Shown here: positions 10,162 to 17,109 of the stretch, in pieces
Position numbering within the stretch: position 1 is the stretch's first letter
Layout of the letters: each line of letters opens with the position of its first letter
DNA from: Eggerthellaceae bacterium
Lineage (GTDB): Bacteria; Actinomycetota; Coriobacteriia; Coriobacteriales; Eggerthellaceae
Reading direction: 5' to 3'
Assembly (NCBI GenBank): GCA_022644775.1
Contig: JALCHN010000004.1
Span: 18,172 to 82,171, forward strand
Length of the DNA: 64,000 nt
Program-made: the position numbers and the translations under genes
The notes under the pieces: generated by a model
What the model was told of the DNA's origin: nothing
Database searches by the model: none
The model's input: the letters and a program-made list of their open reading frames with translations, nothing else

Positions 10162-13140
10162 ATGGATGGGCACACTGAATCTCAGCCGTATGTAAACAGG
10201 GGGCGGCGGGCCGTTTGGGCGGCTATCGTCCTTTCTGCGGGGCTGGCCACGGTCCCGAACGCCGCGTGGGCGGCCGAATCGGCTGCTTCTGTTGCGACGG
10301 CGGAATCGAGCGCTACCGTACAGGCGGTCGCGAGCAGCGGGAGCGCCGATCAGGCGCAGCTTGGCCAGGACGCGCGCGAAGCGCAGGCGCAGGAGGCCGC
10401 TTCGAGCGACGCCGCAAACGCTTCTGCTTCCGCAACCGCTTCCGCTTCGATGGCCGCGTCGAGTACGTCGCCGGCGGCTTCTTCCGACGAAGGCACCTAC
10501 CAGCAGGCCGGCCTTCATGCGCTCACTATCAGGTACGTCGACGAAAACGGCACGCAAATCGCCCCAACGCATCGCGAGGCCGTTGCCAACGGCGAATCGT
10601 ATAGTGTGGCGAGCCCTTCGGTGGGCGGCTTTGAACTGGCCGATGCATCGCAGGCCACCGTTGCGGGCACCATGGCCAAAGGCGCCGGCGATGTGTCCGT
10701 TACGGTAGCCTACCGCTCGACGATGGCGACCTACACCGTGGTGCACGAACGCCAGGTGGGGGCGAAGTCGAGCGAGTACCGCGTGGCGCAGACCGAACGC
10801 TTCAAGGCCCCGGCGGGCTCGAAGGTGACAGCCGCGCCCAAGTCCTACGACAACTATACGTGCGCGACCGACCCGAAGGATTTTTCGGCCGAAGTCACGC
10901 CCGACGGCAACACCGTGATCGTGATCAAGTACAACGTGGTCGTGCCCACGTCCGGCATCTACTTCGTGACGAACGGGTCGTACGTTGCGCCGGTGACGGG
11001 GCATGTGGGCGACGTTTTTGCGGCTCCGGCGAGCCCCGAGCGCGCCGGGTATTCGTTTCTGGGCTGGGACACCAACGGCGACGGCACGCCCGACGCGCTT
11101 CCCGTCACGCTGCCCGAAGGCGATGTGACCGCGACTGCGGTGTGGAAGCCCGAGCAGGCAACTTACCTGGTGAACTATTGGGGCGAAGACCAGGACGACG
11201 CAGAGGATACACGCCATTACCACCTGATTAAGACGGATACCCTTTCCGGTACGACCGAATCGACCGTCCCCTTGGCTCCCAAGCTCGACACCGCTAAAGG
11301 CGGCGCGTTCCAATGGTACGTGTATTCCCACGAGGACCAGGGCGCTACCATCGCCGGCGACGGCACGACGGTTCTCAACGTGTATTACGACTGGAAACGC
11401 GTGAAAGTTTACTATCGTGCTCAGCTTGACGGTGTGAGCGACATCTCGAAATACCCGGATGTGGTCGAGCCGTCCATTCAAAAAATGTATGACAATCTTG
11501 ATTGTCCTGCAGGGGATTCGGCGTTGAGCGTTTACAAGTCGAGAGGAGGGGCTAAAGCTCACTTCCTGCAATGGTGGGACCCGAAAAATAGATGGTCCGT
11601 ATCTAACATTTCTGACATCTCGCCGGATACCGTGTTATGGACGAGCGACGGTTCGCTCGAGGAGTACATCGTCGCGCGCTTCACGGACGCCGAAATGGGC
11701 GACCACTATATGATCAAAGTGTTTCAATCTGCCGATGGCTCGACGTATTCCGTCGGGGATGTTGAGAAGAAGAGCGCGGTGCTTCCAAGTAATGCCTGGT
11801 GGACCATGCGCGTACAACGAGAAGGCTTCCAGCTGGTGGCGTGGAGGAACTCGACCAACGTGTGGGACGGGCGTAATCAAGGCGCCATTGCATGGGGTGA
11901 CTGGCATATTGTCTCCAGCAAAGATATCGACGCTAATGGGAGAATTTCGACCGGCAAAATCAATACCTCGCAAGCAAACGTGTTTGAGTTCAAGTATGAC
12001 CGCATTCCCTACGATGTCACCTACTATTCGCAGAGCACGGTCGTGGGTGCGAAGACGCAGCTATTCGGATCGACGGTCGATGTATCTGCCGCTGAGGCTC
12101 CCGAAGCTCCGACAGGCTTGGTCTTCGGCGGATGGTACACGGACCCGAATTTCAAGGGCAATCCGGCGGCTTCGCTCACGGTACCCGTGGGCGGCGTCAA
12201 TTTGTACGCGAAATGGGTTCGCCCCAACGTGAACGTCACGTTCGATTCCGCAGGTGGCACGCCTGTTGGTGCGCAATCGGTAGTTTGGGATGGGAAGGCG
12301 CAGCGCCCTGCCGACCCTGTGCGTGCGGGATACGCGTTCGGCGGCTGGTACTACTTCGGCGTAGATTCCGCAGCGCCGGCGCGCTTCAGCTTCGACATGC
12401 CGCTCGAAGGCGACGTAGCGCTCGTCGCCGCTTGGAAGTCGTTGCAAGAGCCGGTGGCCTATACGGTGCGCCATGTGTCCGCCGACGGCTCGGTGCTTGC
12501 CGAACAGGTGCTTCGCGGCACGGTGGGGCAGACCGTGAGCGCGTTTGCGCTGGCCTCTGACGATGCGCTGCGCCAGGGTTTCGCCTACGTCGATAAGGCG
12601 GGCGAGGCGATCGATCTTGCTTCCGACGCGTCGCAGAACGTCATCGTGTTCACCTATGCGAACGAGCCGCGCCACGCCTTCCGGGTGCATTTGCGGGATG
12701 CGGCGACGGGGCTTCCCGTTGCAGCCGACATCGATTTCGATTCGGTCGACGCGATCCTGAATTTCCGCGCTCCCTCTATTGCGGGCTACCGTGCGGCCCA
12801 CGGCGGGCAGGGTTACTTGACGATGCGCAACGGCGGCCAGGAGCTCACGTTCTGGTACGTGAAGGATGCGGAGCCTTCCGATGACGGCGAGCTTTCGTCG
12901 CATGAGGGCGACGGTGCGGCAAAGACGTTTGCGGCTTTCGTTGGCGAAGAGCCGGGCGAGAGCGCTGCGTCTGCGGCAGCGACGCCGGCGGACGCTGGCG
13001 TAGCGCGCCATGCCGCCAAGGCGGTTCCCGCCACGGGCGACGATGCGGATATTCGGGTGCCGGCGGGCATTGCGGTGGTTTCTGCGGTCGTGGTCGCCTT
13101 GGGCTTCGGCGTGCGCCGCAGGGCAAAGCACGCGCGCTAG
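10162..13140 (+). CDS. Large cell-wall-anchored surface protein with MucBP-like and InlB-type repeats
   Basis: A 992-residue secreted protein. The signal peptide is about residues 1-38 (AAIVLSAGLATVPNAAWA) and an Ala/Ser/Gln-rich stalk follows to about 105. MucBP-like modules begin at ITIRY-type ALTIRYVDENGTQI and again after residue 180. InlB/Listeria-Bacteroides repeats appear at about 265-330 (ERAGYSFLGWDTNGDG) and 615-765 (LVFGGWYTDPNFKG, PVRAGYAFGGWYYFG). The C-terminus has VPATGDD, a hydrophobic segment and RRRAKHAR, an LPxTG-like sortase signal with V in place of L. It probably mediates adhesion to mucus or matrix, which is inference. An AAGGGG ribosome site precedes the ATG. The central part (about residues 410-615) is AT-richer than its flanks and lacks obvious repeats. 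Confidence 0.88.
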   Translation: MDGHTESQPYVNRGRRAVWAAIVLSAGLATVPNAAWAAESAASVATAESSATVQAVASSGSADQAQLGQDAREAQAQEAASSDAANASASATASASMAASSTSPAASSDEGTYQQAGLHALTIRYVDENGTQIAPTHREAVANGESYSVASPSVGGFELADASQATVAGTMAKGAGDVSVTVAYRSTMATYTVVHERQVGAKSSEYRVAQTERFKAPAGSKVTAAPKSYDNYTCATDPKDFSAEVTPDGNTVIVIKYNVVVPTSGIYFVTNGSYVAPVTGHVGDVFAAPASPERAGYSFLGWDTNGDGTPDALPVTLPEGDVTATAVWKPEQATYLVNYWGEDQDDAEDTRHYHLIKTDTLSGTTESTVPLAPKLDTAKGGAFQWYVYSHEDQGATIAGDGTTVLNVYYDWKRVKVYYRAQLDGVSDISKYPDVVEPSIQKMYDNLDCPAGDSALSVYKSRGGAKAHFLQWWDPKNRWSVSNISDISPDTVLWTSDGSLEEYIVARFTDAEMGDHYMIKVFQSADGSTYSVGDVEKKSAVLPSNAWWTMRVQREGFQLVAWRNSTNVWDGRNQGAIAWGDWHIVSSKDIDANGRISTGKINTSQANVFEFKYDRIPYDVTYYSQSTVVGAKTQLFGSTVDVSAAEAPEAPTGLVFGGWYTDPNFKGNPAASLTVPVGGVNLYAKWVRPNVNVTFDSAGGTPVGAQSVVWDGKAQRPADPVRAGYAFGGWYYFGVDSAAPARFSFDMPLEGDVALVAAWKSLQEPVAYTVRHVSADGSVLAEQVLRGTVGQTVSAFALASDDALRQGFAYVDKAGEAIDLASDASQNVIVFTYANEPRHAFRVHLRDAATGLPVAADIDFDSVDAILNFRAPSIAGYRAAHGGQGYLTMRNGGQELTFWYVKDAEPSDDGELSSHEGDGAAKTFAAFVGEEPGESAASAAATPADAGVARHAAKAVPATGDDADIRVPAGIAVVSAVVVALGFGVRRRAKHAR

Positions 13141-14834: not shown

Positions 14835-14909
14835 GGGCCCTTAGCTCAATGGTGGAGCAGGGGACTCATAATCCTTTGGTTGTCGGTTCGAGTCCGGCAG
14901 GGCCCACCA
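14835..14909 (+). tRNA. tRNA-Met (CAT anticodon)
   Basis: A 75-base cloverleaf including the encoded CCA. The acceptor GGGCCCT pairs with AGGGCCC, the anticodon loop is CTCATAA and the T-arm is GTCGG-TTCGAGT-CCGGC. The anticodon stem ends in two G-T pairs. An elongator Met tRNA is most likely, but a CAT anticodon modified to read AUA (tRNA-Ile2) cannot be excluded by sequence alone. It lacks the mismatched first pair expected of an initiator. Confidence 0.93.
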
Positions 14910-14960: not shown

Positions 14961-15121
14961 AGCGGTTTTTGCTCGCTCGTCAGTCATTTGGCAGCCACGA
15001 ATCGCCCGCCGTGCTCGCCTCTCGCGGCTCCATTAGCTTTCTTCCGCATCGCTCTCGTCCTTCTTGACGCCTATCAATTCGCCCGTTTCCGTAGGCGCAC
15101 CCAGCTCACGACGGTTACCGC

Positions 15122-15197
15122 CGCGTGTGACGACGGGCGCGCGTGATGTTGTCACAAAAGCGTGTGACAACATCACGCGCCCCTGTTGTCACACGCG
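15122..15197. repeat. Nested palindrome with four TTGTCACA-type half sites
   Basis: The inner arms GCGCGTGATGTTGTCACA (15139-15156) and their exact complement (15163-15180) form an 18-bp stem with a 6-base loop. An outer pair CGCGTGTGAC (15122-15131) and GTCACACGCG (15188-15197) encloses it. The half-site GTTGTCACA/TGTGACAAC occurs three times, and a fourth copy reads GTGTGACGAC. It could be an operator array, a small palindromic mobile element or a transcription barrier. Confidence 0.8.
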
Positions 15198-15231
15198 CGG
15201 GCGTCGTCGAAAAAGTTTTTGAAAAAAGTTC

Positions 15232-15259
15232 TTGCCAATCGTTTCGACTTCCGTATAAT
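15232..15259 (+). promoter_or_regulatory. Promoter of tRNA-Asn (and probably tRNA-Val)
   Basis: TTGCCA, a 16-base spacer and a consensus TATAAT; the tRNA starts 30 bases downstream. Confidence 0.7.
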
Positions 15260-15288
15260 ACTTTCTTGCGCACAGATGAAGCGCACAT

Positions 15289-15363
15289 TCCTCGGTAGCT
15301 CAACGGCAGAGCATCCGGCTGTTAACCGGAGGGTTGTAGGTTCGAATCCTACCCGGGGAGCCA
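15289..15363 (+). tRNA. tRNA-Asn (GTT anticodon)
   Basis: A 75-base cloverleaf with encoded CCA. The acceptor TCCTCGG pairs with CCGGGGA, the anticodon loop is CTGTTAA with anticodon GTT, and the T-arm is GTAGG-TTCGAAT-CCTAC. A good promoter lies upstream. Confidence 0.96.
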
Positions 15364-15400
15364 TTTTTTATTATCCCGGCCGCTCAGGCGGCTCTTTATT

Positions 15401-15475
15401 GGGCGTATGGCGCAGCGGGAGCGCGCTTCCTTCACACGGAAGAGGTCACAGGTTCGAACCCTGTTACGCCCACCA
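15401..15475 (+). tRNA. tRNA-Val (CAC anticodon)
   Basis: A 75-base cloverleaf with encoded CCA. The acceptor GGGCGTA pairs with TACGCCC, and the anticodon arm CTTCC-TTCACAC-GGAAG gives anticodon CAC (GUG codons). It lies 37 bases after tRNA-Asn without its own promoter and is followed by a strong terminator, so the two are probably co-transcribed. Confidence 0.96.
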
Positions 15476-15485
15476 TCGATTTGCG

Positions 15486-15510
15486 AGCCAGCCTTCGGGT
15501 TGGCTTTTTT
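15486..15510 (+). terminator. Rho-independent terminator of the tRNA-Asn/Val unit
   Basis: AGCCAGCC-TTCG-GGTTGGCT followed by T6, a textbook hairpin. Confidence 0.85.
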
Positions 15511-15534
15511 GTTACCTGGATGGAAGGACTTTCG

Positions 15535-17109
15535 GTGGGAGACAGGCTTCTTTCGCGTCGAGCGTTCCTCGCTGGATCGGCCGCCCTTTCCGCTGCCTTC
15601 GCGCTGGGCCTCACCGGTTGCGGGAAGACCGAGCCGCAGGACACGCGTTCGTTCGGCGGCGGCACGATTACCGCCTCGTTCGCCACCACGGCCGATAGCT
15701 TCCATCCCTGCACGGCCACGGCCCCGCTTGCGCGATCGGGCAACTTGCACGTGCTCGAGCCCCTCTACGAATCGAACCCCACGAGCTACGAGGTGTTTCC
15801 GGCCTTGGCCGACGGCTTCCCGCACTTCCAAGACGACGGCACCTGCACGATCCGCATCCGCGACGACGCGCGCTTTTCCACCGGCGCGGCCGTCACGGCC
15901 GCCGACGTCGTGGAATCCTACGAACGCTTCGCCACGCTCAACCCCACGCTGGCCCAGCATCTCGACTTCATCGCCGATATACAGGCCACAGACGACCAAA
16001 GGATCTCGATCACGCTCGCGCGCCCCTTCACCTTCGTGGAAGAGCGCCTGCAGATGGTCAAAGTCTTTCCGGCAGACCAGTCCTACGAAGAGGCCAACGC
16101 CTCGCCCGTTGGGTCGGGCCCCTGGCGCTATGCGTCGTTCGAGAACAAGAAGCTCATCTTCTTGCCCAACGATTCCTATAACGGGCCCCATACGGTGCTC
16201 GACAACGAAATGGACTGGTCGATCATCCCCGACGACGTGAACCGCGTGCGCACCCAGAACGACGGTTGGACCATGGCCATGCAGGACGTTCCCGGCGATT
16301 CCACCGTGCAGCTGAACAACGCCGGCATGGACGTCGACATCACCCAGGGTTTCGACGCGCCCTTCTTCGCCTTCCGCACCGATGCCGGTCCCTTCGTCGA
16401 CGCCCGCGTGCGCCAGGCCGTCTTCTATTCGATCGACACGAACGAGCTCGTCGACATGGCCCTTGCCGGGCGTGCGAGCGTACCCACCTGCTTTTTGCCG
16501 GTGAACCACCCCGACAACGACCATACCGACACCTTTTACTATTACGATCCCTCCCGCGCGAAGGAGCTGCTTTCCGACGCGGGCGTCTCGCAGGTGTCCT
16601 TCACGCTCGATTGCGCCAACGACGCGGTGCTTTCCTCGATCGTGCCGCAGATCAAGGCCAACTTGGAAGCCACGGGCCTGTTTCAGGTCACCCTGCGCCA
16701 GCGCGATGCCCAGGACCTCTACAACGACGTCGACGCCGGCGATTCAGGCGTCGTGGCCATCCTCGACCGTCAGGACCCCTTGGCCTATGCGAGCGACGCC
16801 TGCTTCATCATGGAATGGTGGTACAAGGACCCGCGCTGGATGGGCAAGCGCACGGGCTGGTCGTCGACCGACGAATACGGCCAGCTGCAGGACCTGCTCG
16901 ACGCCGCCGAAGCGGGGGAGGGCGACGACCGGCATGCCGCGATCCTCGATTGCATGAACCTCATCGCCGACCAGGCGGTCATCTACCCGCTGCTGCACCT
17001 GCAGAGCGCTACCGCCTTCAACCGCGCCAAAATAGACGGCGGCGTCGCCATGGGCGGCGACGAGCTCTACCTGCTCGACGCGGCGACCGTTGTGCAGGAG
17101 GACGAATAG
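15535..17109 (+). CDS. ABC transporter substrate-binding protein, family 5 (peptide/nickel type), Tat lipoprotein
   Basis: I start at GTG 15535 because GGAAGGA lies about 6 bases before it; the ATGs upstream fall at the tRNA terminator T-tract. The 524-residue product opens with a twin-arginine lipoprotein signal (SRRAFLAGSAALSAAFALGL, then TGC lipobox). It contains the SBP_bac_5 hallmarks FRTDAGPFVDARVRQAV and YDPSRAKELLSDAG. Such proteins capture oligopeptides, nickel or glycosides for an ABC importer. No permease or ATPase genes are adjacent; the next gene is a ROK kinase. The ligand is not predictable. Confidence 0.88.
   Translation: MGDRLLSRRAFLAGSAALSAAFALGLTGCGKTEPQDTRSFGGGTITASFATTADSFHPCTATAPLARSGNLHVLEPLYESNPTSYEVFPALADGFPHFQDDGTCTIRIRDDARFSTGAAVTAADVVESYERFATLNPTLAQHLDFIADIQATDDQRISITLARPFTFVEERLQMVKVFPADQSYEEANASPVGSGPWRYASFENKKLIFLPNDSYNGPHTVLDNEMDWSIIPDDVNRVRTQNDGWTMAMQDVPGDSTVQLNNAGMDVDITQGFDAPFFAFRTDAGPFVDARVRQAVFYSIDTNELVDMALAGRASVPTCFLPVNHPDNDHTDTFYYYDPSRAKELLSDAGVSQVSFTLDCANDAVLSSIVPQIKANLEATGLFQVTLRQRDAQDLYNDVDAGDSGVVAILDRQDPLAYASDACFIMEWWYKDPRWMGKRTGWSSTDEYGQLQDLLDAAEAGEGDDRHAAILDCMNLIADQAVIYPLLHLQSATAFNRAKIDGGVAMGGDELYLLDAATVVQEDE

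Follow-up and report, generated by a model that had tools for sequence, protein, structure and literature searches.

A palindrome between tRNA genes of an Eggerthellaceae bacterium is probably one copy of a REP-like repeat family spread by a Y1 transposase

Results and discussion

A REPIN-like doublet upstream of a tRNA-Asn promoter

The palindrome at positions 15122-15197 of the window (the whole 64,000-nt stretch of DNA that was analysed, to which all coordinates refer unless a contig or locus is named) is probably a member of a dispersed family of non-autonomous REP-like repeats spread by a Y1 transposase. The family, its architecture, the covariation of its loops and the presence of units of the same architecture around the Y1 gene of a sister species are directly observed, while mobilisation by such an enzyme would follow the example of better-known repeat systems. 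In the following, G000 denotes the window's own genome and G001 that of the sister species.

A previous sequence-only reading had described a nested 76-base palindrome with an 18-bp inner stem, a 10-bp outer repeat and four half sites, and all of these are present. An inverted-repeat search delimited two 35-nt arms (15122-15156 and 15163-15197), 91% complementary and separated by 6 nt, which include a perfect inner stem of 18 bp (15139-15156 and 15163-15180) and an outer repeat of 10 bp (15122-15131 and 15188-15197). The four boxes alternate in orientation; three are exact, and the remaining one, GTGACGAC at 15127-15134, carries a mismatch. Together they define two inverted 29-bp units, each consisting of GTGACAAC, a 13-bp core and GTTGTCAC, placed 8 bp apart. 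Unit 1 (GTGACGAC-GGGCGCGCGTGAT-GTTGTCAC, 15127-15155, forward strand) is followed by the 8-nt spacer or loop AAAAGCGT (15156-15163), whose sequence varies among copies, and by the inverted unit 2 (GTGACAAC-AGGGGCGCGTGAT-GTTGTCAC, 15164-15192, reverse strand). With five outer paired bases on each side, the arms, the fold and the dispersed homologues characterise the whole palindrome as a REPIN-like inverted doublet. Folded as RNA, 15110-15235 reached -79 kcal/mol, whereas shuffled sequences averaged -43.4 (z = -9.5). Next to the doublet, the 17 nt at 15192-15208 (reverse strand; reverse complement GACGACGCCCGCGCGTG) are 88% complementary to 15129-15145, and this inverted pair suggests that they are probably a truncated third unit. 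Another box lies within 25 bp of 11 of the 25 complete doublets in the regions fetched for comparison, against a background of 6%.

The placement of the palindrome between tRNA genes and upstream of the tRNA-Asn promoter was borne out by the window annotation (tRNA-Met, 14835-14909; tRNA-Asn, 15289-15363; tRNA-Val, 15401-15475) and by a promoter-like TTGCCA-16-TATAAT at 15232-15259 on the forward strand, downstream of and outside the palindrome. The order is tRNA-Met, a terminator-like hairpin, the palindrome and the promoter. In an Rfam search, only the tRNAs reached the gathering score, and matches of the hairpin to eukaryotic miRNA families were sub-threshold. Elsewhere in the window, a 992-residue open reading frame (10162-13140) resembles, by eye, a surface protein anchored to the cell wall, its domains being repeated and its C-terminus bearing a VPATGD-type sorting motif.

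This location had also suggested an operator of the tRNA pair, in which a dimeric regulator bound to the alternating half sites would govern the tRNA-Asn/Val promoter. The half sites are indeed symmetric, and some 35 bp separate them from the -35 box downstream, but G001 keeps both the tRNA-Asn promoter and the cluster of tRNA-Met, tRNA-Asn and tRNA-Val genes, with 91% identity over window positions 15212-15700, and alignment of this syntenic locus revealed no palindrome. The unaligned intergenic stretch measures 105 nt in G001 vs. 258 nt in G000; this empty-site comparison shows absence rather than exact boundaries, since the left intergenic part is unalignable. Moreover, dozens of unit copies sit at unrelated genes, and units are found also as direct tandems. 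An operator is therefore not supported, appears scarcely credible, and can be dropped as a reading of the tRNA locus.

A dispersed repeat family with covarying loops

Genome-wide copies, a search for which had been proposed as a check on the palindrome, proved numerous. A DNA search of the 1.96-Mb draft genome G000 returned about 40 homologous places, and a pattern search identified 90 exact GTGACAAC-N(8-18)-GTTGTCAC units vs. 0 for the reversed-pattern control, so that the family occupies roughly 40 or more places. Because the unit recurs to this extent, chance is excluded as the origin of the palindrome, and dispersal over dozens of sites needs no tRNA-linked integration event. Many G000 contigs start or stop within a unit, and since the repeat breaks the assembly in this way, the unit count is a lower bound. 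Among 399 genomes of the order, the consensus doublet matched only G000 and, weakly, G001, and no further genome carried the unit sequence of the window in number, a result that weighs against our explanation.

Units occur as inverted doublets, direct tandems and singles, and inverted neighbours point the G-rich end of their cores outward. In a comparison set of 83 units with ≤3 mismatches, drawn from the window and 37 further fetched G000 regions, 31 of the 35 pairs of neighbouring units had a gap of exactly 8 bp. The commonest cores were GGGGGCGCGTGAT (41 units) and AGGGGCGCGTGAT (18 units), the former being asymmetric, 13 bp long and enclosed by the inverted 8-bp boxes GTGACAAC and GTTGTCAC. 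By a rough composition rule, about 65% of bases are predicted as coding, yet such sequence held only 11 of 81 units.

The 8-nt loops of inverted doublets are highly variable (27 distinct among 31), and their two halves nevertheless tend to pair: 53 positions were paired vs. 34.3 ± 3.6 after shuffling (maximum 49 in 10,000), in a shuffle that permutes halves and ignores relatedness among copies. Arms likewise differ at 1.0 position within one doublet vs. 2.5 positions between random units. Variation of the loop with preserved length and pairing is the pattern described for the REPINs of Pseudomonas (PMC3116915). Four loops are each common to two doublets, as could result if whole doublets were copied, although the numbers are small and some of these four loops are self-complementary. 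If REP/RAYT and TIR/TIRYT systems are taken as a model, two inverted copies of the basic 29-bp unit and their 8-nt loop would fold into one long hairpin, the REPIN-like doublet, which may be copied in single-stranded form and inserted at new sites, mostly between genes. The copying enzyme would be a Y1 (HUH) transposase whose gene has its own units on either side.

Alternatively, the hairpin could be retained for a cellular function, as a transcript end, an mRNA stability element or a site for gyrase or a nucleoid protein, with no mobility of its own. Such secondary roles are documented for REPs elsewhere (PMC6006769), and the intergenic bias, the very stable hairpin and the loop covariation would all be expected, the last also from selection on the hairpin. 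However, the window copy is followed by no T tract and was not scored as a terminator in the terminator scan, direct tandems form no long hairpin, and units flank transposase genes in relatives. The unit sequence is also nearly absent from G001, which has a different family, and turnover must therefore be fast. Taken together, a purely cellular role seems unlikely, and we retain the REP-like repeat spread by a Y1 transposase as the preferred explanation.

Y1 transposase genes and their flanking repeats

G000 and G001 each encode one Y1_Tnp gene, and the two proteins are 44% identical. Both match the NCBIfam RAYT model with scores under its cut-off, and both carry a C-terminal extension, LSVRQIERLTGISRGII, that looks helix-turn-helix-like by eye; there, Pfam gave Y1_Tnp only, plus a sub-cut-off match. 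Relatives of these transposases are mostly from Coriobacteriia. The G001 gene has GTGACGAC-GGGGACGGAGGGT-GTCGTC units on both flanks, and such units are dispersed, with about 42 in G001 and 3 in G000. This G001 family and the window family share the same architecture and differ in sequence, the window unit being nearly absent from G001. The two genomes are a sister pair whose repeats differ in sequence along with their transposases. The pattern of another family, GGGGGACGGTTCT, had one match in G000 and 0 in G001.

The sole Y1 gene of the G000 assembly (L084:1087-1941, reverse strand, contig C10) was considered as the partner of the window units and rejected, as its flanks carry a third palindromic family of their own, CTGACAAAT...ATTTGTCAG. 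This third family has 16 exact copies in G000, several of them clustered on contig C11, and none in G001. That the only assembled G000 gene is flanked by another unit family speaks against our explanation, in which the link between the window family and a gene is indirect. In G000, the locus syntenic to the G001 transposase is a contig break: on the ferritin side, contig C39 stops in a window-type unit that bears an insertion sequence (IS) end, and on the NrfD-like side, contig C20 starts inside a window-type unit in the opposite orientation. Most simply, this assembly gap would hold the cognate Y1 gene of the window family; alternatively, the gene may have been lost.

An association of Y1 genes with inverted repeats extends beyond these two genomes. 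We compared the flanks of 79 Y1 genes for which these were usable (77 from relatives plus the G000 and G001 genes), a set that includes near-duplicate Collinsella genomes and whose cases are thus not all independent. Inverted repeats of ≥18 nt across the gene, within 500-bp flanks, were found for 37 of the 79 vs. 1 of 132 shifted control intervals, and the motif GGGGWSAS occurred on both flanks of 14 of the 79 vs. 0 of the 132. Many of these inverted repeats have a GGGGAC core, and one of them, CGTGACAAGGGGACAGGTCATTTGTCACG (L096), is built, like the window unit, as box, core and box.

These features best place the family next to the TIR repeats of TIRYTs (TnpA-Y1 subclass 2.1), with an arrangement like that of REPINs; the kind of element is already known, and the bacterial group is little studied. 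TIRs of TIRYTs, or 'TIRtrons', were described by Di Nocera and colleagues as carrying the motif GGGGWSAS in some or most cases, not all, and as being dispersed in part as dimers or clusters (PMC3733652). A G-rich core near GGGGWSAS and dispersed singles, dimers and clusters are shared with our family. Inverted repeats on both sides of a Y1 gene are a likeness seen in the G001 family of the same architecture, and the C-terminal extension of the Y1 proteins, helix-turn-helix-like by eye, may correspond to the C-terminal helix-turn-helix domain of TIRYT transposases. Unlike these TIRs, the commonest core GGGGGCGCGTGAT departs from GGGGWSAS, and the exact motif is likewise absent from the window cores GGGCGCGCGTGAT and AGGGGCGCGTGAT. 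Further differences are the high copy number for a 2-Mb genome, the doublets with an 8-nt covarying loop, and the absence of the cognate gene of the window family from the assembly, a flanking Y1 gene being seen for the G001 family.

With REPINs, REPs and their RAYTs (PMC3116915, PMC2817692), the family shares palindromic units of 20-40 bp, inverted hairpin doublets, mostly extragenic positions, a spacer whose length is kept with compensatory changes, and one family per transposase. In contrast to these, its boxes enclose the asymmetric G-rich core, and its Y1 genes score under the NCBIfam RAYT cut-off. The GT[AG]G foot usual beside canonical REP hairpins is not evident in the unit, and among the unit flanks that were listed no GT[AG]G recurs constantly, which also weighs against our explanation. 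A literature search, in which subscription papers were thinly covered, returned nothing relevant joining REP/RAYT to Eggerthella.

Insertion of an IS3-like element in repeat units

Nine ends of one IS were detected in G000, all at contig ends (L169-L177, on contigs C47, C1, C38, C56, C15, C43, C17, C39 and C24), vs. 0 in G001. The body of the element is apparently unassembled, and one type of IS end only is present in the assembly. Its encoded C-terminus matches integrase-core models, rve_2 above cut-off, consistent with membership of the IS3 family. All 9 ends adjoin repeat-unit sequence at one fixed core position: in window-type units, the junction is GGGGG^CGC^GTGAT, with the IS in both orientations, and in other units it is GGGGA^CGG^TTCT or a close variant. 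The 3-bp overlap between both orientations suggests a 3-bp target duplication, as judged from a single IS end.

The sequence-only reading had proposed a palindromic element, REP- or MITE-like, and these junctions help to separate the two. The REP-like part stands on the dispersed copies, the doublets, the covarying loops and the units of the same architecture at the G001 Y1 gene. A MITE that arose from a DDE insertion sequence and moved via terminal inverted repeats with target duplication would account for a short, dispersed palindrome in a genome with an IS3-like element. However, the ends of this element (…GTCCGCACGTCC) join the repeat in mid-unit at a fixed position, and the units are therefore its target and not its own end. 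Singles, tandems and doublets all exist, and an unsystematic look noticed no consistent flanking duplication beside units. A DDE-derived MITE is thus very unlikely, and the REP-like repeat spread by a Y1 transposase remains preferred.

Specific insertion into REP units is known for IS1397 and ISKpn1, both of the IS3 family (PMC1525189), and our element resembles these in having an integrase-core IS end at one fixed unit position in both orientations. It differs in that the units it targets are TIR-type, belong to more than one family and lie in a Coriobacteriia-type genome, and in that only one of its ends is assembled, so that the IS family and the 3-bp duplication are inferred from this end. 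Repeats that form hairpins and receive IS copies explain the breaks of the draft assembly at hairpins and at IS copies inside them. More tentatively, and with slightly more doubt than belief on our part, TIRYT-type Y1 transposases may here maintain true REPIN-like satellites, i.e., doublets with a fixed 8-nt covarying loop, in families that are replaced between sister species and that offer a targeted landing site to an IS3-like element. One little-studied group would then combine the TIR/TIRYT branch of Y1 transposases with repeats organised like REPINs. In a later classification, most TIRYTs belong to subclass 2.1, near which no REP-like sequences were found (PMC6006769), and such satellites, if real, would depart from that report.

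One of the IS-carrying units, at the end of contig C43 (L174), is part of an inverted doublet from a different family, GTGTCAGGGGGACGGTTCTCTTTGACAC, whose 8-nt loop is ACCGCGGT, and a repeat similar to GTGTCAGGGGGACGGTTCTCTTTGACAC flanks a Y1 gene in L144.
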